Shown here: one piece after another, positions 11,254-26,562 of the stretch
Layout: each line of letters begins with the position of its first letter
Numbering within the stretch: the first letter of the stretch is position 1
Source: Verrucomicrobiia bacterium DG1235
GTDB taxonomy: Bacteria; Verrucomicrobiota; Verrucomicrobiia; Opitutales; Opitutaceae
Reading direction: 5' to 3'
Assembly (NCBI GenBank): GCA_000155695.1
Contig: DS990592.1
Location: 1,326,556 to 1,390,555, forward strand
Length of the DNA stretch: 64,000 bases
Notes under the pieces: generated by a model
Databases searched by the model: none
Told to the model about the DNA's origin: nothing
What the model saw: the letters and a program-made list of their open reading frames with translations, nothing else
Made by a program: the position numbers and the translations under genes

Positions 11254-12831
11254 TTAAGAAAACCGAACCCGTTTAACAGGCTTGACCGCCTTCAAGCGAT
11301 ACAAGTCCCCGCGCCGCGACCCTAGCGGCCGCACCGTTCCCACATCTCGCTGCATCGCCAGTGTATTCAGATCCAAATCACAGATCACCACCGTCTCCGC
11401 ATTCGGATCCGCTTCACCGGCTATCGCGTTCACCGGAAACGCGAAGTCGCTCGGCGTAAACACCGCTGCCTGTCCATAGTTGATCAAATAGTTTTCGTAG
11501 GTCGGCAAGTTACCAACGTTCCCAGCCATCACCACATAGACATAGTTCTCCGTCGCCCGCGCCTGAGCGCAAAAACGCACGCGATTATACGCCTTCTTCT
11601 CATCCGTGCTGTACGGCACGAAAATCACTTCCGCCCCGCCAAGCGCCAACAAACGCGACGCCTCGGGAAACTCGACATCGTAGCTCAGCTGAATCGCCAC
11701 CCTCGCCATCGATGTATCGAAAATCTTGAGACCATCCCCTGGAGTCATCCCCCATTCGTTAAAATCGGTCGGAGTGATATGCAGCTTCTCCTGAAAGTCG
11801 ACCTGTCCATCGGGCCCGAACAGAAAGCCAACATTCTTCAAGGAGCCATCTTCATACTCCACCGGAATCGAGCCGCCCACGATATACAAGCCATTGTCCT
11901 TGGCCAAATTCGTCATCAAGCCCAAATAACGATCCTTCATCTTCGCTAGTTCGCGAATCGCCACCTTCGGCTCCAGCTCCCTCGGCATCAGACAAAAAAG
12001 CTGCGCCGTGAAAAGCTCAGGCATCACCAGAAAGTGACTATGGTAGCTACTCGCCGTGGATACGAAAAACTTCACCGTCGACTCGAATTCCTCCCAAGAG
12101 TGAATTCGACGCATCTCCCACTGGGCTGCGCAGACGCGAATACTCCGCACCGGTCGCTTAAGAGGTGCCGCCGCAATCATTCGTCGAGCCGGGTCGAAAG
12201 TCGGATTCGGCATCTCCAGATAGGTCGAGTAATTCATGCTCGCCTCGTCCGCCATGAAATCGAAGAGCACTCGCTTCACTTCATAACCCGCCCGCAAATG
12301 AGCCAGCAAAGCATAGTCCTTGAGCTTACCAGCCTCCACCTTGGAGACGAACTCCTCCGGAGTCATCCTCCCCGCAAATTCACTGTACTGAGGGATGCGA
12401 CCATAAGCGACCATGCGACGAAGGTTGTACTTGCTCAGCAACTCCCTCCGCTTCTCGTAGAGCAAACTCGCAATTCGACGCCCGCGGTAGTCGGGTCGCA
12501 CCGCGATATCCGCCCCATAAAGCGTATCACCACTCGGCTCGTGCGTGCTAAAGGTATAGCCACCCGTGATCTCCGAATACGTGTAGACATGCTTCTCTCC
12601 CAGATCGTCCAACTGAACGATAAGCGACGTCGCATAGCCTACCACCTTTCCATCCAGCTCAGCCAAAAACTGCCCCTCAGGAAAAGCCGTCATCTGCAGT
12701 TCGTGCAAGCGTTCGTCAAAAACCTCTTCAGGCGAATAGTCAGGATAGGCGGCCTCGTGGCAGGCCATGATTTCTGGAATATCCTCCAGCTTCCAGTTGC
12801 GAACAACAACCGAGTCTTGCTTAGCGCTCAT
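11254..12831 (-). CDS. GNAT acetyltransferase fused to a nitrilase-like domain (YhcX type), nucleophile Cys replaced by Ser
   Basis: 525 residues. Residues about 8-200 are a GNAT N-acetyltransferase with the acetyl-CoA loop (VRPDYRGRRIASLLYEKRR). Residues about 228-515 are a carbon-nitrogen hydrolase domain. This architecture is that of Bacillus YhcX-like proteins. Of the nitrilase Glu-Lys-Cys triad, Glu272 (MPELF) and Lys349 (QEKLHITPTD) are present, but the position normally Cys (CYDVEFPE) is Ser383 (codon AGC, positions 11683-11685). The domain may therefore have lost amidase activity or changed chemistry. The substrate is unknown. It lies 87 bases downstream of the LysR gene on the same strand, so it may be co-transcribed with or controlled by that regulator. 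The family assignment is firm; activity is open. Confidence 0.88.
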   Translation of the reverse strand: MSAKQDSVVVRNWKLEDIPEIMACHEAAYPDYSPEEVFDERLHELQMTAFPEGQFLAELDGKVVGYATSLIVQLDDLGEKHVYTYSEITGGYTFSTHEPSGDTLYGADIAVRPDYRGRRIASLLYEKRRELLSKYNLRRMVAYGRIPQYSEFAGRMTPEEFVSKVEAGKLKDYALLAHLRAGYEVKRVLFDFMADEASMNYSTYLEMPNPTFDPARRMIAAAPLKRPVRSIRVCAAQWEMRRIHSWEEFESTVKFFVSTASSYHSHFLVMPELFTAQLFCLMPRELEPKVAIRELAKMKDRYLGLMTNLAKDNGLYIVGGSIPVEYEDGSLKNVGFLFGPDGQVDFQEKLHITPTDFNEWGMTPGDGLKIFDTSMARVAIQLSYDVEFPEASRLLALGGAEVIFVPYSTDEKKAYNRVRFCAQARATENYVYVVMAGNVGNLPTYENYLINYGQAAVFTPSDFAFPVNAIAGEADPNAETVVICDLDLNTLAMQRDVGTVRPLGSRRGDLYRLKAVKPVKRVRFS

Positions 12832-15647: not shown

Positions 15648-16358
15648 ATGAGCCAAAAATTTTCATTCACAATCAATTCCATCAACACCGTATCCGAACT
15701 CCCCGGAGCATGGACGCCAAAGCACAGCTCCGAGCTCCTCAAAAGACTCGAGTTCGAAGGAGCCGCCGATGTCACCGAAGACCAACTACAGGAGTACGCA
15801 GTCATGGCCTTGCAGGACCTTGAGTGCCCCGAAGCCGCTCGCGCCTTGCTCGACGTAGTTCTCGGGAACAAGCTTTCAGACGGAAAAAAGCAAAACGTCT
15901 CGGAAGAGATGGAAAGCGAACGCCTTTGGGAAGAATACCCGGATCTCAGCTGCCACGAGCCCATCTTCAATGCCCAAGTCCTCCTGAACAAAGCCTTCCC
16001 CTCCGTCCCGACCCCCGAAGTCAACCTCGTGCGAGCTACCCTTAGGCCCCTTGATCAAGCAGCCGAAGCGCTGCTAAAAGAGATCGCCTCACCTAACTTG
16101 CCGGAGGCCTTCATCACACGCTGCATCGCCGCAGCGTCCTCGGAGACATCCATTCTGAATCGCCTCTTCGAGGACCAGGTCGCGGGCGGCCCCTTCCCCG
16201 AGGCCGAGCACCTTGTATGGCACATCCAGACCGAAAAAGCGCCCGCCGAAGACAAGTTCCGAGCCGGCTACGTCCTCTCGCTATTCAGCCCGATACGCTG
16301 GACCGAAAGCCTCGAAGAGGATAACGTCACCGAATGCTCTCCAGACACGAAATCTTAA
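15648..16358 (+). CDS. Hypothetical acidic soluble protein
   Basis: 236 residues with no signal peptide or transmembrane segment. It is Glu/Asp-rich and predicted mostly helical from its heptad-like Leu/Ala pattern. I do not recognise a family. It lies 44 bases after the TerC gene and 136 bases before the RimB-like protease, on the same strand, so it may belong to either transcript. Codon use matches its neighbours, which supports it as a real gene. Confidence 0.7.
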   Translation: MSQKFSFTINSINTVSELPGAWTPKHSSELLKRLEFEGAADVTEDQLQEYAVMALQDLECPEAARALLDVVLGNKLSDGKKQNVSEEMESERLWEEYPDLSCHEPIFNAQVLLNKAFPSVPTPEVNLVRATLRPLDQAAEALLKEIASPNLPEAFITRCIAAASSETSILNRLFEDQVAGGPFPEAEHLVWHIQTEKAPAEDKFRAGYVLSLFSPIRWTESLEEDNVTECSPDTKS

Positions 16359-16494: not shown

Positions 16495-16947
16495 ATGTCC
16501 AATAGCCAGCCAACCTTGATCGGTTGGAAAGAGTCTATCGACCTGCCCGAATGGGGCATTCGAGACATCACAGCCAAGACAGATACCGGAGCGCGCCGCT
16601 CCGCTATAGACGTAGAAAATATCGTCGAGCTCCCGGGCAACCGCGTCCAGTTCGAGGTCGCCGCAGACAGACGCACCGGCCAACTCAAGACCACCGTCAT
16701 AGCCGACATCGAACACCAGACCCACGTCCGCTCCAGCAACGGCCAGCAGCACGAACGATACTTCGTCGCCACCACCGTTCGCGTCGGAGACGTCACCAAG
16801 CGCATCGAGCTCAGCCTCAGCAACCGCAAGCATATGCAATGCCGCATGCTACTCGGACGCCTAGCCCTCGAAAACGACTTTCTCGTAGACTGCTCCGAGA
16901 GCTTTCTGACACGCCCCAACCGAAAACCAAAAATCGGAAAACGCTAA
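16495..16947 (+). CDS. RimB-like retropepsin-fold protease (ATP-dependent zinc protease family)
   Basis: 150 residues, the full length of the single-domain family (PF05618). The catalytic DTG motif of aspartic proteases is present at KTDTGARRSAID, and GRLALENDFLVD closes the domain. In Pseudomonas the RimB member works with RimK and trims the glutamate tail that RimK adds to ribosomal protein S6. It lies 16 bases upstream of rimK here, which supports an opposed ligase-protease pair. The first residues match the family start (IGWKE), so ATG 16495 is well supported. Confidence 0.88.
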   Translation: MSNSQPTLIGWKESIDLPEWGIRDITAKTDTGARRSAIDVENIVELPGNRVQFEVAADRRTGQLKTTVIADIEHQTHVRSSNGQQHERYFVATTVRVGDVTKRIELSLSNRKHMQCRMLLGRLALENDFLVDCSESFLTRPNRKPKIGKR

Positions 16948-16963
16948 CCAACACCGCTCCACT

Positions 16964-18187
16964 ATGGACCCACTAAAAATCGCCATTCTCTCTAGGGGCC
17001 CACGCCTCTACAGTACTACTAGACTACGGGAAGCCGCCGAAAAGCGAGGACACAAAGTCAAAGTCCTCGATACCATGAAGTTCGCCCTCTACATAGAGGC
17101 AGGACAGCCAGACCTAACCTACGGAGGCAAGGCCCTGAGCAGCTATGACGCCGTCATACCTCGTATCGGAACCTCCATTACATTCTTTGGATCATCCGTT
17201 GTGCGACAGTTCGAGCAGATGGGTACCTATTGCTTGAATACAGCCGACGCCATTCTAGCCTCTCGCGACAAGTTAGCATCCATGCAAGAGCTCTCCAGCC
17301 ACAATATTGGCATAGCAGAGACCGCCTTCGTCCGCAACCCCGCCGACGTACTTAAAGCCATCCAAGCTATGGGCGGAGCTCCCGTAGTGATAAAGCTCTT
17401 ACAGGGAACCCAAGGCATTGGCGTCATTCTCGCAGAGACTAACAAAGTCGCCGAAGCCATTATCGAAACCCTCAGCGCCGTTAAGCAAAACGTGCTCGTC
17501 CAGAAATTCGTATCCGAATCTAAAGGACGCGACATACGAGCCTTCGTCGTCGGCGACCGAGTCGTAGGCGCCATGCGCCGCACCGCAGCCGGACAGGAAT
17601 TCCGCAGCAACGTCCACCGAGGAGGCAATACTCAAGCCGTCACCCTCGACCCCGAGTACGAACGCACCGCCGTAAAGGCAGCCCAAATTCTCAATCTGCA
17701 CGTGGCCGGCGTGGACATGCTCGAAGGCAAGGACGGCCCCGTCATCATGGAAGTAAATTCCTCCCCCGGGCTCGAAGGCATCGAAGGCGCTACCGGTCTC
17801 GATATCGCCGGCGAGATCATCGAAAACCTCGAAAACCAAATTCAATTCGGCAACTTCGACGTGCGCGAGCGTCTCGCCCTTACCCGAGGCTACTCCGTCA
17901 CAGAATTCACGGTCGAGCCCCACTCGGAAATCGCCGGCAAAACCATTATCGAATCCGGCCTGCGCGATCGCGACATCGTTGTTATGCGCCTCGCCCGGGG
18001 CACCGACCACATCGCCAACCCAAAAGGCACTCGAGTCATCGAGCCAGGCGACCACTTGCTCTGCTACGGCCTGAAGGCCGCCTTGCAAGGACTCCTTCCC
18101 ACCTTCGCGAAAGCCAAGCGCAGAAAGAAGAAAAGCACCCTCACCAAAAAAGCCACATCTCCCACTAGCGGGGACACGCCTAGCTGA
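16964..18187 (+). CDS. rimK: RimK-type ATP-grasp amino-acid ligase with C-terminal TrkA-C domain
   Basis: 407 residues, about 100 longer than E. coli RimK. Residues 1-100 are the RimK N-terminal domain and about 101-290 the ATP-grasp fold, with the glycine-rich loop LLQGTQGIGV, the RSNVHRGG motif and metal-binding MEVNSSPG (Glu263, Asn265). RimK adds glutamate residues to a C-terminus or peptide using ATP. Residues about 311-380 (EIAGKTIIESGLRDRDIVVM, then PGDHLLCYG) are a TrkA-C domain, known from potassium-transport regulators that bind small ligands, followed by a Lys-rich tail. The stop overlaps the next start (TGATG), so translation is coupled with the AstE-like gene. The S6 protein or another protein or peptide may be the acceptor. 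Confidence 0.92.
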   Translation: MDPLKIAILSRGPRLYSTTRLREAAEKRGHKVKVLDTMKFALYIEAGQPDLTYGGKALSSYDAVIPRIGTSITFFGSSVVRQFEQMGTYCLNTADAILASRDKLASMQELSSHNIGIAETAFVRNPADVLKAIQAMGGAPVVIKLLQGTQGIGVILAETNKVAEAIIETLSAVKQNVLVQKFVSESKGRDIRAFVVGDRVVGAMRRTAAGQEFRSNVHRGGNTQAVTLDPEYERTAVKAAQILNLHVAGVDMLEGKDGPVIMEVNSSPGLEGIEGATGLDIAGEIIENLENQIQFGNFDVRERLALTRGYSVTEFTVEPHSEIAGKTIIESGLRDRDIVVMRLARGTDHIANPKGTRVIEPGDHLLCYGLKAALQGLLPTFAKAKRRKKKSTLTKKATSPTSGDTPS

Positions 18188-19254
18188 TGAAAAGCAAACC
18201 CCTTAAAATCGGAGGCGTCACCGTACGTGCCGGCGAAACCAAAGACATAGGCCTAGACCTCTCCGAAACCTACACCGGCGATGCCATCCGCATGCCGGTA
18301 CGAGTCATTCGCGCAAAAAAGCCCGGACCTCGCGTCTTCGTCACCGCAGCCATCCATGGCGACGAAATAAACGGCACCGGCATTATCCACGACTTCCTCT
18401 TCGGCGAAGCCTGCGACATCAAATGCGGCGCTCTCATCCTCGTACCTGTCGTCAACGTGCTTGGTTTCGAAAACAACCAACGCTACCTGCCCGACCGCCG
18501 CGACCTCAACCGATCATTCCCCGGCTCGCCAAGAGGAAGCATGGCCTCACGTATCGCTCACAAACTCATGACTGAGGTCACATCAAAGTGCGACTTCGGC
18601 ATCGACCTCCACTCCGCCGCCTTCCAACGCACCAACTACCCAAACGTCCGCGCCGACCTTTCAAACCCAGCCATTCGCAAGCTCGCGTCCGCCTTCGGCT
18701 GCGCCCTGGTCATCGACGGAAAAGGTCCCCTCGGCTCCTTCCGCCGAGAATGCGCTCGCTCCGGAGTTCCCACCATCATTCTCGAGGCGGGCGAACCCTG
18801 GAAGATCGAACCGAGTGTATTGCAAATCGGAGTACAAGGCATCAAGAACGTCCTCATTCACCTCGGCATGCTCGAGGGCGAAAACACCCCGCCACCCTAC
18901 CAAGCCATCATCCGCAAGACCCAATGGGTGCGTGCCACCGTCGGCGGTATCCTAAAGTTTCACATCAGCCCCGGCGAGTTCGTGACCGAAGGCCAACCCA
19001 TCGCCACCAACTACAGCATCCTCGGCGCCGAACAAAACATCATCACAAGCCCCGCCTTTGGCATCGCTATCGGTATGGCAACCATGCCAGCCGTAAAGCC
19101 GGGCGAACCCGTCTGTCATATCGCCACTCTTTCCTCTACGCAAATCAAGCGCTACGAGCGGCAGCTCAACAAAGACAAAACCGATCCCTACAAACAGGCC
19201 CAAAAAGACCTCGCCACCAACGTCGACGTAGTGAACGCCGACTCATCCGAATAA
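18187..19254 (+). CDS. Succinylglutamate desuccinylase/aspartoacylase-family zinc hydrolase
   Basis: 355 residues of the M14-like AstE/AspA family. Zinc ligands are His57 and Glu60 (HGDEINGTG) and His142 (DLHSAA); the substrate-binding DLNRSFPG segment and a late Glu in ILEAGEP complete the site. The C-terminal 90 residues form a beta domain typical of the family (GGILKFHISPGEFV). These enzymes remove acyl groups from amino acids or cleave N-acyl-glutamate/aspartate. Its one-base overlap with rimK argues that it processes a RimK-related product and is not an arginine-catabolism AstE; no ast genes are nearby. Confidence 0.88.
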   Translation: MKSKPLKIGGVTVRAGETKDIGLDLSETYTGDAIRMPVRVIRAKKPGPRVFVTAAIHGDEINGTGIIHDFLFGEACDIKCGALILVPVVNVLGFENNQRYLPDRRDLNRSFPGSPRGSMASRIAHKLMTEVTSKCDFGIDLHSAAFQRTNYPNVRADLSNPAIRKLASAFGCALVIDGKGPLGSFRRECARSGVPTIILEAGEPWKIEPSVLQIGVQGIKNVLIHLGMLEGENTPPPYQAIIRKTQWVRATVGGILKFHISPGEFVTEGQPIATNYSILGAEQNIITSPAFGIAIGMATMPAVKPGEPVCHIATLSSTQIKRYERQLNKDKTDPYKQAQKDLATNVDVVNADSSE

Positions 19255-19287
19255 ACATCGAATAAATTCCCAAAACCCAACTCAGTC

Positions 19288-20550
19288 ATGAAATCAAACA
19301 TCTATAACTCCCTCGTGTTCGAAATGGCCTGCCGCCAATTCGACCGTGCCGCCGATATCCTAGATATGGATACAACGCTTCGAGAGCGAGTTAAGATGCC
19401 AAAACGCTGCCTCGCAGTATCCTGTCCAATACGCATGGACGACGGCAGCGTCATCGTCTACGAGGGCTTCCGCGTCCAGCATCACCTCTCGATGGGGCCC
19501 ACCAAAGGAGGCCTCCGCTTCCACCCGAAAGTCGATCTCGGCGAAGTCGCCGCCCTCTCCATGTGGATGAGCTGGAAGTGCGCCCTCGCCGGACTTCCCT
19601 ACGGCGGAGCGAAAGGCGGTATCAGCGTCGATCCCTACGCCCTCTCGCACTCGGAGCTCGAAAGACTGGCCCGCAGGTACATGCAGGAGATGATTCCCTT
19701 CGTCGGGCCAAACGTAGATATCATGGCGCCAGACGTCGGCACCAACGAACAGGTCATGGCCTGGATGATGGACACCTATTCAAGCTACGTCGGCAGCAAC
19801 GCCACCGCCGTCGTCACTGGCAAACCGGTCAGCCTCGGAGGATCCGAAGGACGAAAGGAAGCCACCGGTTTCGGTGTCGCCTACTTCGCAAAATCATACC
19901 TCGAAGACTTCGGCATAAAGCCATCCAACGCGACCGCCGTAATCCAGGGTTTCGGCAATGTCGGATCGGAAGCGGCCAAAGCCCTCGTCAATTTCGGAGT
20001 CAAGGTCATCGGGATCAGCGATGTCAGCGGAGCTTATCACAACCCCAAAGGTATCGACGTCGATCAAGCCATCCGCTACGTCGCCAAAAATCGCACTCTA
20101 GAAGGCTGGAAAGGCGGCGAACGCATCTCGAACGAAGCTCTCCTCGAACTGAAGTGCGACATCCTCGCTCCCTGCGCCCTCGAGCGCGTCATAAACGAAA
20201 CAAACGCCGCAAAACTCCAATGCCGCATCCTCGCAGAAGGCGCAAACGGTCCGACCACCAACCAAGCCGACGCAGTCCTCACGGAAAATGACGAAATCCA
20301 CGTCATCCCCGACATCATTTGCAACAGCGGCGGCGTGATCGTCTCCTACTTCGAGTGGGTCCAAGACCTGCAAAGCACCTTTTGGACCAGAGAAGAAGTT
20401 CTCAACCGACTCTGCAAACTGCTCGACCGTTCAAAACTCGAGCTCGAAGCCCAACGCAAAAAGCTCAACTGCTCCCGACGCGAAGCCGCACTCACCCTCG
20501 GCATACACCGAGTCGCCGAAGCAAAACGCATCCGCGGCCTCTTCCCCTAA
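19288..20550 (+). CDS. gdhA: Glutamate dehydrogenase (Glu/Leu/Phe/Val dehydrogenase family)
   Basis: 420 residues, normal for the hexameric small enzymes. The substrate-binding and catalytic lysines are in KCALAGLPYGGAKGG (Lys97 and Lys109), and the Rossmann glycine motif is GFGNVGSEAAK. It ends in HRVAEAKRIRGLF as expected. It interconverts glutamate with 2-oxoglutarate and ammonia; sequence alone does not fix the cofactor, though the short form is often NAD-dependent. It lies 33 bases after the AstE-like gene, so it may supply glutamate for the adjacent ligases. Its stop overlaps the end of the convergent MscS gene by four bases. Confidence 0.93.
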   Translation: MKSNIYNSLVFEMACRQFDRAADILDMDTTLRERVKMPKRCLAVSCPIRMDDGSVIVYEGFRVQHHLSMGPTKGGLRFHPKVDLGEVAALSMWMSWKCALAGLPYGGAKGGISVDPYALSHSELERLARRYMQEMIPFVGPNVDIMAPDVGTNEQVMAWMMDTYSSYVGSNATAVVTGKPVSLGGSEGRKEATGFGVAYFAKSYLEDFGIKPSNATAVIQGFGNVGSEAAKALVNFGVKVIGISDVSGAYHNPKGIDVDQAIRYVAKNRTLEGWKGGERISNEALLELKCDILAPCALERVINETNAAKLQCRILAEGANGPTTNQADAVLTENDEIHVIPDIICNSGGVIVSYFEWVQDLQSTFWTREEVLNRLCKLLDRSKLELEAQRKKLNCSRREAALTLGIHRVAEAKRIRGLFP

Positions 20551-21401
20551 CCCGACGCCAGCTCCGCTCCGCGATAATTCACCTGCGAAGGGCGTCCAAA
20601 CGGGATGCCCTCAGCGTCGAACCGACGCTTCAACGCCACATGTATGTCCCAGGTCATATTCATCGCTGTCGGCAAGTCCTTGGCCCAAAGCGGCACCCGA
20701 AAGTTCACCATCGAATTCTTGAAGTCCAGAACCGGAACATCCACCAGCTCCTTGCCTTCCTCCAGCTCCTCGGGCGTGCGCAAATCTAGCAGGTCCGGAT
20801 GCTTAGCAGCCTCTTCCTTAACGATCTCCACCGCCCGATCTACATCCGCCTCGAAACCTATGCTGATAAACATGAATTTCTGCGCTTTCTCGTCCCGAAT
20901 CGACCAATTGATGATCGGCTCCGAATCGATCACCGAATTCGGATAAATCAACCGCTTATTCTCCAAAGCCCGAATCACCGTATGCCTCAAAGTGATGTCC
21001 TCAATCGTACCGATCTCACCGTTTATCTTGATAATGTCATCCACCCGAAACGGCTTGAACAACACAATAAAAACGCCACTCACGATATTCGAAAAAGCCT
21101 TCTGCGAAGCAAAGCCAACAATAGCCGCTAAGATACTCGCGCCCGCGAAAAAGCCGACCGCCAAGGACCTTAAAGCTGGGATGCTGTACACGATCGCCAT
21201 CGCTGCCACGATCAAGATCAAAGCCTTCACCGCATTACGCAAAAACGTGATCCCCGTTCGACGCTCACTATTCAAAGCTTTCCTCAAATTGTGATCGAAA
21301 ATACGCTTGGCGACCAAATAAGAAAGCATCGCTACAAACAGCACCACCGCTATATTTATCACGATTGAATAAGGAAGAGAATCTGGCAGATTTAAGTTCA
21401 T
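20547..21401 (-). CDS. MscS-type mechanosensitive ion channel
   Basis: 284 residues from ATG 21401; a TTG 60 bases upstream is less likely. Three N-terminal transmembrane segments (about residues 12-32, 50-70 and 75-100) lead into the pore helix and conserved AAIVGFASQKAFSNIVSGVF. The cytoplasmic beta domain follows (FRVDDIIKINGEIGTIEDI, then LRHTVIRALENKRLIYPNS). MscS channels open under membrane tension and release solutes, including potassium glutamate, on osmotic downshift. Placed convergently inside the glutamate island, it may share the osmotic theme. Confidence 0.92.
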   Translation of the reverse strand: MNLNLPDSLPYSIVINIAVVLFVAMLSYLVAKRIFDHNLRKALNSERRTGITFLRNAVKALILIVAAMAIVYSIPALRSLAVGFFAGASILAAIVGFASQKAFSNIVSGVFIVLFKPFRVDDIIKINGEIGTIEDITLRHTVIRALENKRLIYPNSVIDSEPIINWSIRDEKAQKFMFISIGFEADVDRAVEIVKEEAAKHPDLLDLRTPEELEEGKELVDVPVLDFKNSMVNFRVPLWAKDLPTAMNMTWDIHVALKRRFDAEGIPFGRPSQVNYRGAELASG

Positions 21402-21489
21402 TCGCTGCCTGGGAATCAGCCAGATCCGCGCCAAACAGACTCCCGGGATCAGACACCTCAAAATACCTTCAAAACGCGCAATTTCCCTC

Positions 21490-21518
21490 TTGGAAAACGA
21501 AAACTTACTACCTATAAA
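21490..21518 (+). promoter_or_regulatory. Sigma-70-type promoter of the C39/ATP-grasp operon
   Basis: TTGGAA at 21490-21495 and TATAAA at 21513-21518 with the ideal 17-base spacer. It lies about 95 bases upstream of the C39-like peptidase start in the divergent gap with the MscS gene. No other pair of this quality was seen in the gap. Confidence 0.6.
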
Positions 21519-21613
21519 CCCACGCTAATCCAGAGGGATAAGAACACTTTCACTCCATAGGATTTCGATCAAATTTACCGCAAGAGGCGCCTCGAATAGC
21601 AGACGCTCCAGAA

Positions 21614-22324
21614 ATGAAAAACACATCCGCGCAAAAGCGATTCAAAATCGTAGCGCAACCGACCGAAACGACCTGCGGCCCCACATGCCTTCACTCAGTG
21701 TATCGATACCATGGTGACGATATTTCACTAGACGAAACCATAGCCGCCATACCGGAAAATCCAGATGGCGGCACCTACTCGGTCATGCTGGCCAACCTAG
21801 CGCTACAACGCGGATACAAGGCCACCATATACACGTACAATCTTCGAGTCTTCGACCCGACATGGAAGTCCCTCAAAAGCTCTGAACTGATAGAGAAACT
21901 ACGCCTCCGCCTCGAACACATTTCAAGCAAGCGAGGCCGAGCGAACCTGACCGCCTACATCGAATTCCTCGAGCTTGGAGGAAAGCTCAAATTCGACGAG
22001 CTCACGACCAAGCTCCTTGCCAAGCTTCTCAAAAAAGGCTCGCCCGTGATCGCCGGCCTCAACTCGACTCACCTCTACCGCAACTCGCGCGTTAAGCGAA
22101 CCGGCAAAGACGACGACGTTCGAGGCGAGGTCGAAGGACACTTCGTCACGATTTTCGGATACAAAAAGAAGGACGACACCATCCTCGTCGCCGACCCCTA
22201 CCAAAAGAACCCCCTTTCGGACTCGCTGCATTACGCCATCGACTCCCAACGCCTCATCAACGCTATCATGCTCGGCATCGTCACCTACGACGCCAACCTG
22301 CTTCTCATAGAAAGGAAGCGATAA
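21614..22324 (+). CDS. C39-like papain-fold peptidase
   Basis: 236 residues. The papain-like triad is visible as Cys21 (TETTCGPTC), His176 (EGHFVTIFGY) and Asp194 (VADPY). There is no signal peptide, so it acts in the cytoplasm. In many Proteobacteria the same domain is fused to a GNAT acetyltransferase and lies beside a RimK-like ligase; here it stands alone, without the GNAT part. The stop codon directly abuts the next ATG (TAAATG), indicating a tight operon with the RLAN ligase. It probably cleaves an amide or peptide bond in the product or precursor of that ligase; this is inferred from context. Confidence 0.82.
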   Translation: MKNTSAQKRFKIVAQPTETTCGPTCLHSVYRYHGDDISLDETIAAIPENPDGGTYSVMLANLALQRGYKATIYTYNLRVFDPTWKSLKSSELIEKLRLRLEHISSKRGRANLTAYIEFLELGGKLKFDELTTKLLAKLLKKGSPVIAGLNSTHLYRNSRVKRTGKDDDVRGEVEGHFVTIFGYKKKDDTILVADPYQKNPLSDSLHYAIDSQRLINAIMLGIVTYDANLLLIERKR

Positions 22325-23809
22325 ATGAAAACAAACCTGACCACAAACGATTCGCCATTCCGAATCGTCGTCGACTCTTTGTCGAAAACACCACAGCGAT
22401 TCCAATCGCTCCCTATCATTACTTCAAGTGAGTATCTGTCCTCTGAATACGCTGAAAAAAAACGACTCAAGATCGTAAATCTCTGTTCACACCGGAAACC
22501 TCTTTCCACAAGCTACTACGTCTCACTTCTCGCTGAAGCGCGAGATCACCGCTGCCTGCCCGAAGCCAAAACACTTCACCAAATCGAAAGCAAATTGCTT
22601 ACACGCGACGCTATTCGCGAACACGACGACCTCATCCAGAGCTCATTCCGACGACTGGCCGCCACTCGATTCACTCTCTCCGTCTATTTCGGAAAAAACC
22701 TCGCCAAATCCTACGACAAGCTCGCCAAACGCCTTTACTCCCTCTTCCCGTGCCCGCTCGTCCAATACCACTTTCAAAAGAAAGAAGGCAAATGGAAGCT
22801 CAGAGAAATCGCCCAGCTCGGTCTTCACCAGGTCGCTGAAGATCACCACGAGTTCATCGAAGCAGAGCTCGACGCCATGCTCCACAAACGCTGGCGGCGC
22901 GACAATCCAAGCAAGTCCTTCCGCTACGATATCGCTATCCTCGCCAACGAACAGGAAGCTAACGCGCCGTCAGACGAAGCCGCCCTCGCCAAATTCTGCA
23001 AGGCGGCCAACCAACTGGACATGCGGGCAGAAGTCATATCTCCGCGCGACCTACCCCGCCTCATGGAGTTCGACGCCCTCTTCCTCCGCGAAACGACCCG
23101 TCTCGACAACCACACCATGCGCTTCGCTCTAAAAGCCGAACGCTCCGGCATGGTCGTCATCGACGATCCGGAGTCCATTCGTCGCTGCTGCAATAAAGTT
23201 TACCTGGCGGAGCTCCTTCGTACCCATAATATACCTACGCCAAACTCAACCCTTATCACACGACGAAACCTAACTGAACTCGCTCCAGGTTTCAGTTTTC
23301 CGCTCATCGTCAAAATTCCCGACGGATCATTCTCAATTGGTGTCCATAAGGTCAAGTCCAAGGAAGAGCTCATTATCCTCAGCAAGGATCTCCTCCAAAC
23401 CTCCAGCATCCTAATCGCTCAGGAGTTCGTCCCCACCGAATTCGACTGGCGCATCGGCATCATCGACGGCAAGCCACTCTACGCCTGCCGCTACTACATG
23501 AGCAAAGGACATTGGCAAATCTACAATCACGCCGTAAAAGGCGCCGACTCCACCGGCGATAGCGCTGGCGTACCCATAAATCAAGTACCGGCAGTCGTCC
23601 TAGACACCGCCCTCAAAGCCTCCACCCTCATCGGCACAGGATTCTACGGCGTCGACATAAAGCAAAGCGGCGCAACCGCACTCGTCATTGAGGTCAACGA
23701 CAATCCAAGCATCGACGCCGGCGTCGAGGACGAACTCATCGGCGACGAGCTCTACCTCTCCATCATGAACACCTTCCTCAAACGCCTAGAATCCAAACGC
23801 GACCGGTAA
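22325..23809 (+). CDS. RimK-like ATP-grasp ligase with N-terminal RLAN domain
   Basis: 494 residues. Residues about 10-165 match the RimK-like ATP-grasp N-terminal (RLAN) domain (IVVDSL, IVNLCSHRKPLSTSYYVSLL). Residues about 200-490 are ATP-grasp: PLIVKIPDGSFSIGVHKV for nucleotide binding, ISE-like AQEFVPTEFDWRIGIIDG and the metal site VIEVNDNPSIDAG. It is predicted to form an amide bond with an amino acid or peptide acceptor. It is second in the C39-RLAN-GCS2-formylglutamase operon, 0 bases after the peptidase and 24 bases before the GCS2 gene. The family was described in comparative-genomics surveys of amidoligases; as far as I recall no product is established. Confidence 0.88.
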   Translation: MKTNLTTNDSPFRIVVDSLSKTPQRFQSLPIITSSEYLSSEYAEKKRLKIVNLCSHRKPLSTSYYVSLLAEARDHRCLPEAKTLHQIESKLLTRDAIREHDDLIQSSFRRLAATRFTLSVYFGKNLAKSYDKLAKRLYSLFPCPLVQYHFQKKEGKWKLREIAQLGLHQVAEDHHEFIEAELDAMLHKRWRRDNPSKSFRYDIAILANEQEANAPSDEAALAKFCKAANQLDMRAEVISPRDLPRLMEFDALFLRETTRLDNHTMRFALKAERSGMVVIDDPESIRRCCNKVYLAELLRTHNIPTPNSTLITRRNLTELAPGFSFPLIVKIPDGSFSIGVHKVKSKEELIILSKDLLQTSSILIAQEFVPTEFDWRIGIIDGKPLYACRYYMSKGHWQIYNHAVKGADSTGDSAGVPINQVPAVVLDTALKASTLIGTGFYGVDIKQSGATALVIEVNDNPSIDAGVEDELIGDELYLSIMNTFLKRLESKRDR

Positions 23810-23833
23810 TCGCCTCATCTCTTTCCATTAAAA

Positions 23834-25087
23834 ATGTCAAAACAACCACTTTCACTTTTCCAGGCCTTCGGAATCGAGCTCGAATATATGATCGTCGATC
23901 GCGACACCCTGCGTCCTCGCCCAATCGCCGAATCCATTCTTCTCGACGAAAACGGCGAAACCACCCAGGAAATTTCCCTCGGCTCCATTGACGTGTCCAA
24001 CGAGCTCGCCACCCACGTGCTCGAATTCAAGACAGCCGGACCCACCGCCGACCTAGAACAGCTCGAACGCGACTTTGCCGCCGCCATCACCGAGATGAAC
24101 GATCGCCTCGCCGTCCACAACGCCATGTTAGCGCCAACCGGTATCCACCCTTTCATGGATCCAGCCATCGAAAGTACCACCTGGAGCAAAGGAGATCGCA
24201 CCATCTACGATGCCTACGACCGAATATTCGGATGCAGCAGCCACGGCTGGTTCAACCTGCAAAGCTGCCACATCAATCTCCCCTTCGCCAACGAAGAGGA
24301 ATTCGCCCGACTTCACACCGCCATCATTCTCATACTGCCCTACTTGCCAGCTCTCTCAGCTAGCAGTCCATTCATCGAGGGAGAATATCGTGGATTTTTG
24401 GATACGCGGCTCGACGTCTACAAAAACAATCAGGCAAAAGTTCCCGAAATCGCAGGCGATATCGTCCCAGAAGCAATCTTCACCTACGCCGACTACCAAA
24501 GCCAAATCCTCGAAAAAACCTACGCTGCCATAAAGCCCTACGATCCGGACGGCATCCTTCAATACGAATGGCTCAACTCGCGCGGGGCCATCGCTCGCTT
24601 CGACCGAAACGCAATCGAAATCCGCGTTCTGGATACACAAGAAAATCCCAAACAGGACATCGGCATCGCCTCGCTCATCATAGCGCTATTGGAAAAGCTC
24701 TGTAGCTTGAATATCGAAAAGCTCAAACAACTAGCCCTCTCGCACACCTCAAAACAACGCAAAGCTCAGTTCCTCGCCGTCGCCAAAGATGGCTTCGAAG
24801 CAGATCTCTCCGTGCGCGACCTCGCGAATACCTTCGGCCTGAATCCAAACGAAACGACCGTTGGCGAGCTTTGGGCGAAAATCGTCGAAGCCCTGAAAGA
24901 TCATCCCCGTGTCGCGAAACGAACAACAGCCCTCGGCTATATACTCCAAGAAGGCAGCCTAGCGGAACGCATGATCGCTCGCGTTGGAACTAAACCAGAT
25001 CAGGAAGACTTAAAAAGCACGCTCGCTGAGCTCGCCCACTGCCTGGCGAAAAGCCAACACTTCGATCCAGCCAAAGCGCTTGTATGA
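23834..25087 (+). CDS. GCS2-family carboxylate-amine ligase (glutamate-cysteine ligase-like)
   Basis: 417 residues of the glutamine-synthetase-like GCS2 superfamily. FGIELEYMIVD near residue 15 is the metal-binding Glu motif, and the core shows HINLPF and EWLNSRGAIARFDRNAIEIR. True GshA and YbdK-type enzymes join glutamate to amines through the gamma-carboxyl. With an ATP-grasp ligase on one side and a formylglutamase on the other (ATGA overlap), it likely makes a gamma-glutamyl product and not glutathione; no gshB is adjacent. The ATP-grasp neighbour could perform the second ligation, which is a formal alternative. Confidence 0.86.
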   Translation: MSKQPLSLFQAFGIELEYMIVDRDTLRPRPIAESILLDENGETTQEISLGSIDVSNELATHVLEFKTAGPTADLEQLERDFAAAITEMNDRLAVHNAMLAPTGIHPFMDPAIESTTWSKGDRTIYDAYDRIFGCSSHGWFNLQSCHINLPFANEEEFARLHTAIILILPYLPALSASSPFIEGEYRGFLDTRLDVYKNNQAKVPEIAGDIVPEAIFTYADYQSQILEKTYAAIKPYDPDGILQYEWLNSRGAIARFDRNAIEIRVLDTQENPKQDIGIASLIIALLEKLCSLNIEKLKQLALSHTSKQRKAQFLAVAKDGFEADLSVRDLANTFGLNPNETTVGELWAKIVEALKDHPRVAKRTTALGYILQEGSLAERMIARVGTKPDQEDLKSTLAELAHCLAKSQHFDPAKALV

Positions 25088-25794
25088 GCCATCAAGCTCG
25101 CTTCCAATTCATCGTCACCGCTGAGCACGCCTCGAGATCCGTCCCACCAGAATGTGAAAACCTGCTGGACGACTTGATCGAAAAAACGGATACTCATCGC
25201 ATCTTCGATCCAGGAACGAAAACGATCGCCGAAGAAATAGCCAGTCGCCTTAAATGCCCACTCATCCTCGGCACTTGCACACGCCTCGCTGTAGACCTTA
25301 ACCGATCCATCGGCAACCCCAGCCAGTTCAGCCCTCCAATCTTCGATTCGGACGAAATGCTGAAAGAACAACTCCTAAGAAACTACTTTATTCCCTTCCG
25401 CTCCGAAACAAAAAGCGTCATCGAATCTTTTCTCGAAAGCTCACAAACCGTAGTTCATATTTCAGTACATTCGTTTACGAAAAACTTTGACGGCGAGCAA
25501 CGCGCAGTCGACCTAGGTATCCTCTTCGATGACACGCGATCGAGTGAAACCGCACTCTGTCACCCTTGGCTTAACGCGCTGCAAACACTCATCCCGGAAC
25601 TTTCCGTAATCGCCAACAAGCCCTACCATGGTCGCGAAGACGGCCACACCTCCGCCCTCCGCAAGCGATACCCGGAAAACCGCTACCTCGGTATCGAGCT
25701 CGAGTTTAGCCAAGATCTCGACCTTGATCTCGACGCCGAAACATACGCTAAAATCATAGCGTCAACCTTGCTTAAACTCTTAGCTAGAAGCTAA
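25084..25794 (+). CDS. N-formylglutamate amidohydrolase-family protein
   Basis: 236 residues. The family signature begins at FIVTAEHASRSVPPE (His metal ligand), with AVDLNRSIGNP and a late Glu in LGIELEFSQD. Characterised members hydrolyse N-formylglutamate in histidine breakdown (HutG), but no hut genes are here. It overlaps the GCS2 gene by four bases (ATGA), so it is translationally coupled and probably hydrolyses an N-acyl or gamma-glutamyl compound linked to that ligase. Its end overlaps the convergent TMEM175 gene by 15 bases. Confidence 0.87.
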   Translation: MSHQARFQFIVTAEHASRSVPPECENLLDDLIEKTDTHRIFDPGTKTIAEEIASRLKCPLILGTCTRLAVDLNRSIGNPSQFSPPIFDSDEMLKEQLLRNYFIPFRSETKSVIESFLESSQTVVHISVHSFTKNFDGEQRAVDLGILFDDTRSSETALCHPWLNALQTLIPELSVIANKPYHGREDGHTSALRKRYPENRYLGIELEFSQDLDLDLDAETYAKIIASTLLKLLARS

Positions 25795-26562
25795 TTCGTC
25801 GGTTTCGTCTTTCTCTCTAGTCTCCGGGTTTTCCAACGCCGCCAAAATCCTTTTTGCCTTCCTCCCATAACGTACACCAACAATCGGCATCGCTATCGGA
25901 ATGACGAAATACAAGAAGCCAGCCATCACGCCCCAAGACGCCGGCAGCAGCAAGGCCCAAAGAGCAGAAACTAAACCCACGCCACTTTGTATCAACCACA
26001 TCGCAACACCTTCTTCAGTCCGAATCCTCTCGAACGAGTTCAAACCCAACTCCTCTGCACTTTTCAAAGCCCGATAAAACAGTCCTGACAAAATCCCTGT
26101 AAGCACGAAAAACCCAATTCCATACACGACGAAGAGACCTTGAATCTCTGCAACCGTCTTTGTCTCGAACTCTCCCGGTATCCACCCTTGCGTCGCCCAA
26201 GCAAGAAAACTGGAAAATATCAGTCGTAATGGGAAAACATATACAAGGATCGTAAACACCATAGATAGCGTCAATCCAGTCGTCCACTTATCCTCTAGTC
26301 CATAGCGGCGACTCCACGAACGATGAGCTATCCAGAAAACCGCAATCTGCGCGAAGCTAAGACCAAAACTTGGAACCTTCTTCAGAGCCAGAATCAGCTC
26401 ATCGAAATTTCCCGGAATACTCCCAACCGAAACCACCAAGGTCGTAACCGCAAAAGCGAAAGCCGCATCAGAGAAAACCTCCAACCGAGTCATACTTTCG
26501 CCCCTCATGCGAAATCCGTTTCGAATTGGTAACTTGTCGAGCGCGTAAGATGTCCAGTTCAT
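25780..26562 (-). CDS. TMEM175-family potassium channel-like membrane protein (DUF1211)
   Basis: 260 residues with about six transmembrane segments. The first carries the family signature RLEVFSDAAFAFAVTTLVVS (the FSD motif of the TM1 pore helix), followed by the AVFWIAHRSWSRRY segment. The family usually repeats this motif; here only one six-helix unit is present, as in bacterial members that assemble as tetramers. Characterised bacterial TMEM175 proteins conduct potassium. It is convergent with the formylglutamase operon. A charged tail (ETREKDETDELASS) ends the protein. Confidence 0.88.
   Translation of the reverse strand: MNWTSYALDKLPIRNGFRMRGESMTRLEVFSDAAFAFAVTTLVVSVGSIPGNFDELILALKKVPSFGLSFAQIAVFWIAHRSWSRRYGLEDKWTTGLTLSMVFTILVYVFPLRLIFSSFLAWATQGWIPGEFETKTVAEIQGLFVVYGIGFFVLTGILSGLFYRALKSAEELGLNSFERIRTEEGVAMWLIQSGVGLVSALWALLLPASWGVMAGFLYFVIPIAMPIVGVRYGRKAKRILAALENPETREKDETDELASS

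Follow-up and report, generated by a model that had tools for sequence, protein, structure and literature searches.

The stretch of DNA analysed here (hereafter, the window) comprises 64,000 nucleotides from the 5.8-Mb genome of Verrucomicrobiia bacterium DG1235 (contig DS990592.1; G000 in our genome set) and contains a cluster of genes for enzymes acting on glutamate or on peptide-like bonds. A preliminary description, made from the letters alone, had recognized there an island of eight genes (three ligases, four hydrolases and a glutamate dehydrogenase, GDH), and all eight were indeed found in that place, predicted as intact genes on the plus strand with products passing their Pfam cut-offs. 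Comparison within the genus Pelagicoccus leaves GDH out and defines the conserved unit as seven genes in two modules, RimB-RimK(TrkA_C)-AstE (module 1) and C39-RLAN-GCS2-FGase (module 2):

16495..16947, plus strand: RimB-like retropepsin, module 1 (PF05618, 73.4 bits against a cut-off of 27; DTG motif in the translation)
16964..18187, plus strand: RimK alpha-L-glutamate ligase with a C-terminal TrkA_C domain, module 1 (PF08443, PF18030, PF02080)
18187..19254, plus strand: AstE/AspA-like zinc deacylase, module 1 (PF24827; HGDE motif in the translation)
21614..22324, plus strand: C39-like papain-fold enzyme, module 2 (PF13529)
22325..23809, plus strand: RLAN-domain ATP-grasp ligase, module 2 (PF14401, 135 bits)
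23834..25087, plus strand: GCS2 carboxylate-amine ligase, module 2 (PF04107, 112 bits)
25084..25794, plus strand: FGase, of the N-formylglutamate amidohydrolase family, module 2 (PF05013, 82.7 bits)

The tight couplings noted previously are visible in the coordinates, the RimK and AstE genes sharing one base, the C39 and RLAN genes abutting, and the GCS2 and FGase genes overlapping by four bases. Among the matches listed, two Pelagicoccus species were the nearest named relatives possessing the locus (83% and 81% identity of the RLAN protein), and the source of the window is accordingly taken for a Pelagicoccus or close kin. A search of eight genomes of the genus (G- and L-numbers designate genomes and loci, respectively) revealed RLAN in six and the RimB family in all eight; both RimB-family proteins of G555 belong to a different subfamily (27–31% identical). 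The two modules lie together in five of the six genus genomes that have both. For example, all seven genes of G557 follow one another without interruption (RimB-RimK-AstE-C39-RLAN-GCS2-FGase) with a gap of 14 bp between AstE and C39, and in G554, G558 and G559 (L223, L224 and L225) the same junction contains a gene for PPK2, a polyphosphate kinase able to regenerate nucleotide phosphates (its identity was tested with PF03976 on one of the three genes). The place between the modules is taken in the window by two other genes, of which the second, absent from the preliminary description, parts the two gene groups:

19288..20550, plus strand: GDH, a neighbour and no fixed member (PF00208/PF02812)
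20547..21461, minus strand: MscS mechanosensitive channel, between the modules (PF00924, PF21082)

Overall, the grouping of three ligases with four hydrolases is upheld by the five clustered genomes and by the conservation of key residues (see below), and the suggested co-occurrence of all eight genes holds for seven of them and not for GDH, so that the original observation is partly confirmed and its interpretation, the making and breaking of a glutamyl tag or peptide, partly supported.

In a tree of RimK and AstE, G557 falls outside the group of G190 and others (supports 0.992 and 0.973). Since the linked G557 thus branches outside the group that holds G190, in which the modules are unlinked, the linkage is most simply older than the G190 split. 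The modules would have been brought together within the Pelagicoccus lineage, by the simplest account a single time, and their interruption by GDH and MscS in the window appears, most simply, to be a derived state. The tree of module 2 sets the six genus genomes apart from other families (support 1.0), with a weak inner order.

GDH was rejected as a member of the unit on account of its shifting position, or its absence from the stretch fetched, among the relatives. The gene precedes the cluster in G558 and G559, the stretches (up to 20 kb) retrieved from G554, G557 and G190 show no copy, and a family search of G190, where both modules are present, returned a sole match only 37% identical. Nor was it present in 40 RLAN-centred loci and 12 further RLAN loci that were read. 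GDH-family genes 4.7–6 kb from RLAN in three named loci (L134, L139 and L200) count against dismissing it. With regard to MscS, a homologue 76% identical adjoins the RimB-RimK-AstE genes in G450 (L233); the flanks of its orthologues in G190, G126 and G180 were inspected for an unoccupied site and have no convincing genes in common with the window.

RimK proteins are commonly annotated as ligases of ribosomal protein S6, and an S6 tail was one of the targets envisaged in the preliminary description. Glutamylation of S6 by RimB and RimK would agree with the RimK score against the NCBIfam S6-ligase model (NF007764; 335.8 bits, cut-off 331), with the RimB family match, and with the similarity of RimK to solved chains of S6-modification proteins and alpha-L-glutamate ligases, the best match being 7qyr (probable alpha-L-glutamate ligase, E 1.5e-99). 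However, S6 of the window organism ends in MIQKA, and not one of the 27 S6 proteins from genomes of the order Opitutales counted as module-1 carriers (module 1 being read directly in 26 of them) ends in Glu or Asp, unlike the E. coli control, which ends in DSEE; a terminal Glu is presumed to be needed. The S6 ends were read for 51 of the 59 genomes with an S6 match. Moreover, RimB fails the equivalog test (74 bits, cut-off 200) despite its DTG motif and Pfam family match, and RimK has an additional TrkA_C domain, detected in eight of eight proteins tested from the order and in none of three from outside it. A tree of 32 RimK sequences, given without support values, unites the proteins of the order in one group. 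The lack of acidic ends led us to disfavour S6, which judging from these sequences is an unlikely target of RimK here, and we consider its glutamylation quite improbable as an account of module 1. The missing tail is a trait of the order rather than the result of a change in RimK, because S6 is similar in genomes without module 1.

The acceptor could also be another ribosomal protein, such as L9. In all seven genus genomes with module 1 the tail of this protein is long and acidic and has Glu as its last residue (e.g., L042, rplI at about 2330–2840), and the mean net acidity of the tail is 6.7 in 25 RimB-RimK genomes versus 1.6 in 17 others (L9 was read in 42 genomes; a simple pattern, unsuccessful in two rows, defined where the tail begins). 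On the other hand, 9 of those 25 proteins end in neither Glu nor Asp, and acidity is a general property of salt-adapted proteomes. G555, a member of the genus without module 1, has a comparable tail that ends in Glu, and for this reason L9 was rejected as a target; a ribosomal acceptor of this kind appears very improbable, even more so than S6.

The genes that accompany module 1 elsewhere point in a different direction. Within 5 kb of AstE, the 36 RimK-AstE loci include 10 with MscS, 7 with MgtE and 5 with CorA (14 with any of the three), a minority of loci that is nevertheless larger than in the controls, as the same distance around RLAN yielded 3, 0 and 1, respectively, in 107 distinct loci that lack module 1. 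For loci having 5 kb on both sides, the corresponding values for AstE versus the RLAN control were 9/30 vs 3/75 (MscS), 7/30 vs 0/75 (MgtE) and 5/30 vs 0/75 (CorA). Duplicate loci were removed from this comparison; L129, L130 and L132, which duplicate L223, L224 and L051, had been left out before counting, and so had L300, whose Salinivibrio species is already represented by another strain (L242). Individual arrangements can be quite compact. A single-strand, tight row RimK-AstE-CorA-MscS-MgtE, assigned by hidden Markov models, is found in Photobacterium sp. GJ3 (L325 6962-11948), and in Vibrio nigripulchritudo an MscS gene begins 11 bases past the RimB-like gene, with a universal stress protein gene nearby. 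MscS and a magnesium transporter are annotated near the Salinivibrio trio, and a magnesium transporter, CorA and MscS near that of Vibrio europaeus. Within Verrucomicrobiota the trio is adjoined by MscS and CorA in G152 and by CorA in G090. None of MscS, MgtE and CorA was seen at the trio loci of Acaryochloris and Photobacterium DA100. Three loci have a gene of the M42 glutamyl aminopeptidase family no more than 2 kb away from AstE.

There are also published observations on salinity. In KEGG, rimK is represented by K05844. This entry is reported to be commoner in brackish than in marine relatives (PMC10219603). In two further papers, rimK of Photobacterium damselae is 52-fold up at 1% NaCl (PMC10308900) and Pseudomonas aeruginosa cannot cope with low osmolarity once three RimB-like Rlo proteases are lacking (PMC12239564). 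Taken together, the data hint at a system of glutamate peptides that is linked to salt balance and not to the ribosome. Several points speak against this. MscS, CorA and MgtE are all missing within 5 kb in 22 of the 36 RimK-AstE loci, and CorA was also found near RimK without AstE in one of ten such loci (Marinobacterium, L207). The transporter profiles were seeded partly from neighbours of the trio, related loci were counted apart and plasmid records were taken from top hits, so that the excess of ion genes is inflated and neither its size nor its p-values can be trusted. The low-salt response of P. damselae concerns another organism, with a RimK of possibly different type. Our literature search found no paper linking RimK with mechanosensitive channels and succinylglutamate desuccinylase, nor any on a Pelagicoccus RimK.

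The sequences of module 2 suggest functional enzymes. In a 23-row alignment of the C39-like family, Q15 and C21 are nearly invariant (two rows start too late to cover them) and H176 and D194 invariant or nearly so; as these four residues are kept in nearly all rows, the enzyme is probably active. The stretch VIEVNDNPS is conserved in the RLAN family (32 rows), G13, E15, E17 and other polar residues are invariant in GCS2 (19 rows), and E14, H15, H125, H129, E205 and E207 are invariant in FGase (13 rows). The RLAN gene of the window adjoins a gene for a papain-like protein of the C39 type. In four of four proteobacterial loci tested, the papain-like neighbour of RLAN is a GNAT-DUF3335 fusion, and no GNAT domain was matched in the C39 protein of the window. 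The families are known already. Neighbourhoods combining RLAN, GNAT-papain and GCS2, and with them module 2, were reportedly predicted to make peptides in the 2009 amidoligase survey of Iyer et al. C39-RLAN-GCS2 was identified in 22 of the best 80 of at least 586 confirmed named RLAN loci, 13 of the 22 also having FGase, and by record title these 22 belong to Verrucomicrobiota, Planctomycetota, Bacteroidota, Nitrospirota and others. A review of papain-like proteins mentions the GNAT-DUF3335 fusion and, with regard to a possible function in peptide ligation, refers to the 2009 survey (PMC10318531). No product of the C39-RLAN-GCS2-FGase module was found in our literature search, nor a paper on RLAN with ATP-grasp, nor one on an operon joining RimK, polyphosphate kinase, ATP-grasp and glutamate-cysteine ligase.

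An ATP-grasp ligase paired with a C39-type protease, a combination used in some peptide natural products, raises the question of whether module 2 modifies a ribosomally made precursor peptide in the manner of graspetide ligases. Around 39 RLAN-GCS2 loci no neighbour family of at least 80 amino acids recurs in more than three loci (shorter precursors were not systematically searched), which makes this the most remote of the alternatives considered. Some of the three-locus neighbour families span genera or phyla. In genus g56 (L055, L056 and L061), RLAN is followed by a small gene, with a SET domain in the one tested, and a divergent GNAT gene flanks the locus.

Comparison with known systems clarifies what the present locus adds. 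The S6-modifying RimB-RimK(-RimA) system of Pseudomonas employs the same RimK ligase family (N-domain and ATP-grasp) and the same RimB retropepsin family. It differs in that AstE and TrkA_C are added here, the S6 end is not acidic, RimB scores below the equivalog cut-off and no RimA gene was recognized in the present cluster. The RimK-RimB-AstE trio of marine Vibrionaceae, Phaeobacter and Acaryochloris consists of the same three genes, several beside MscS, MgtE or CorA, but TrkA_C is absent from the two proteobacterial representatives tested (Hydrogenovibrio and Salinivibrio) and the stretches read contain no module 2 gene. The RLAN/GNAT-papain/GCS2 neighbourhoods likewise bring together an RLAN ATP-grasp, a C39-like enzyme and GCS2; the present locus has instead a stand-alone C39_2 enzyme, FGase, and the joining to RimB-RimK-AstE. 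Finally, RloABC of P. aeruginosa resembles module 1 in combining a RimB-like retropepsin with an ATP-grasp partner and differs by a signal peptide on RloA and a transglutaminase-like membrane protein (PMC12239564), no gene for which is found in the present cluster. The new elements are the joining of the modules in Pelagicoccus, a RimK-TrkA_C without an acidic S6 end, and the ion-transport neighbours of some RimK-AstE genes.

The explanation that we tentatively prefer, at somewhat less than even confidence, is a seven-gene operon for the making and breaking of glutamyl bonds, whose two modules turned neighbours in the Pelagicoccus lineage and combine an ionic or osmotic role with the formation of a small peptide. 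Most likely it would turn over alpha-glutamyl chains as ionic conditions dictate and, alongside, synthesize a small glutamyl peptide. RimK would add alpha-linked glutamates under the control of its ligand-binding TrkA_C domain, RimB would trim the chains, and the AstE-like zinc enzyme may free a capped end or residue; its nearest solved chains are 3cdx (succinylglutamate desuccinylase/aspartoacylase) and 6twl and 6twm (N-acetyl-diaminobutyrate deacetylase). The RimK acceptor is most likely a free glutamate peptide or some protein, probably not S6, and module 1 would serve to adjust a polyanionic glutamate pool to ionic or osmotic conditions. In module 2, GCS2 is expected to couple glutamate to an amine and the RLAN ligase to add a further residue, with C39 and FGase hydrolysing or transferring the product to give a small gamma-glutamyl-type peptide. 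All of these substrates, the role of TrkA_C, co-transcription of the seven genes and any product shared by the modules are what we infer from the gene families and their arrangement.

A number of observations weigh against the make-and-break operon. The modules are on different contigs in G190, G556 has module 1 alone and G555 lacks module 2. The downstream order of FdhA and FdhD is also kept in several genus genomes, hence synteny alone is weak evidence for a shared function. The S6 ends are similar where module 1 is counted as missing, with a terminal Glu or Asp in 3 of 22 genomes. Beyond the genus, the neighbourhood of RLAN was read in the other 32 sampled genomes of the order that carry it (contigs of 7.1 kb or less in three of them, one of the two copies in G049) and showed neither RimB nor RimK nor AstE, so the joining is seen only in the genus; 17 of these 32 have a RimB-family gene elsewhere in the genome. 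The split in G190, the lone module 1 of G556, the conserved flanking order and the lack of joining beyond the genus would also be expected if two independent, already known modules had become neighbours by history alone, one acting on alpha-glutamyl chains and the other on a small peptide, with no shared substrates or control; the failure of any neighbour family to accompany module 2 in more than 3 of 39 loci fits as well. We consider such an accident of history almost as probable as the operon. It has to contend with the persistence of the linkage in five of six genus genomes while GDH, MscS, PPK2 and TMEM175 (see below) vary, with the 14-bp junction of G557, with the two RimB-RimK pairs near GNAT-C39 and RLAN genes in Marinobacterium (L207), and with a co-occurrence of the modules in genomes above expectation.

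This co-occurrence was assessed in a sample of 177 genomes of the order, where RLAN is present in 33 genomes, RimB-family genes in 29 and both in 18. Counted by genus, with RimB required to be linked to RimK, both modules occur in 10 of 77 genera against 3.8 expected (Fisher p 1.7e-4, uncorrected for relatedness); without genus g57 the values are 9 and 3.5 (p 6e-4). The RimK-linked set comprises 24 genomes of 14 genera and includes G084 and G147, with RimK and AstE beside RimB; G049 was counted as a module-1 carrier by proxy, from its RimB score and its genus mate G033. The 3.4 kb stretches read at RimB of G076, G095, G145, G162 and G165 contained no RimK or AstE (G162 has a second RimB place outside that reading). 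The independent distribution of the two halves, which the preliminary description had named as evidence against itself, is thus borne out in part: outside the genus they were never seen joined in the order sample, yet they share genomes more often than expected. On the phylum level (387 genomes), RLAN is found in 46 and RimB in 62, and G243 has its RimB-RimK-AstE genes at a distance of 11 kb from RLAN. Outside the genus, RimK lies near RLAN, among the best 80 of at least 586 loci, in Hydrogenovibrio, Marinobacterium and an Oceanospirillaceae bacterium. The locus of Marinobacterium rhizophilum (L207 5004-11485) consists of two tandem RimB-RimK pairs beside GNAT-C39 and RLAN genes.

A bolder version of the operon hypothesis, rather unlikely in our estimation, would take RimK of the Opitutales off the ribosome altogether. 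It would act as a ligand-gated osmotic valve that senses through TrkA_C and, at falling salinity, converts free glutamate (the usual counterpart of potassium) into poly-alpha-glutamate, while RimB, AstE and, in some loci, adjacent M42-type peptidases would release it upon a rise, and module 2 would draw on the same pool for a gamma-glutamyl osmolyte or a thiol-like peptide. In more general terms, RimK-AstE of this order departs from the common S6-ligase annotation by the S6 end, by TrkA_C and, in part of the loci, by adjacent ion genes. The non-acidic S6, the added TrkA_C and the ion-gene neighbours mean that the role of RimK with AstE can be put to a direct test in marine bacteria that grow in culture. 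Through the joined operon, in turn, the product of the C39-RLAN-GCS2-FGase module becomes approachable; named loci with this module come from many phyla (among the best 80 of at least 586 loci).

The remaining features at the locus are the following:

15648..16358, plus strand: protein of 236 amino acids with no family match, upstream of rimB, cluster membership uncertain
21490..21518, plus strand: possible sigma-70-type promoter TTGGAA-17-TATAAA, weak, read by eye
25780..26562, minus strand: TMEM175-type potassium channel, a convergent neighbour and no member (PF06736)

The promoter that the preliminary description had placed at 21490 can indeed be read between the divergent MscS and C39 genes. 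It was missed by a consensus scan in which the second hexamer had to end in T, and which returned 3 promoter-like sites in the region, compared with 4.7 in shuffled sequences; hence the grading of the promoter as weak. The 236-amino-acid protein matched nothing in Pfam, NCBIfam or PADLOC at E 0.001. An anti-phage defence system was considered and dropped, as none of nine proteins compared had a PADLOC match at the same threshold. Homologues of the 236-amino-acid protein (50–52% identity) lie upstream of rimB in three other genus genomes, i.e., in four of eight including the window, and a TMEM175-type gene is close to the cluster in G557, G554 and G558 as well. Elsewhere in the window (11254-12831), a gene adjoining that of a LysR-type regulator encodes a fusion of a GNAT acetyltransferase with a carbon-nitrogen hydrolase domain.

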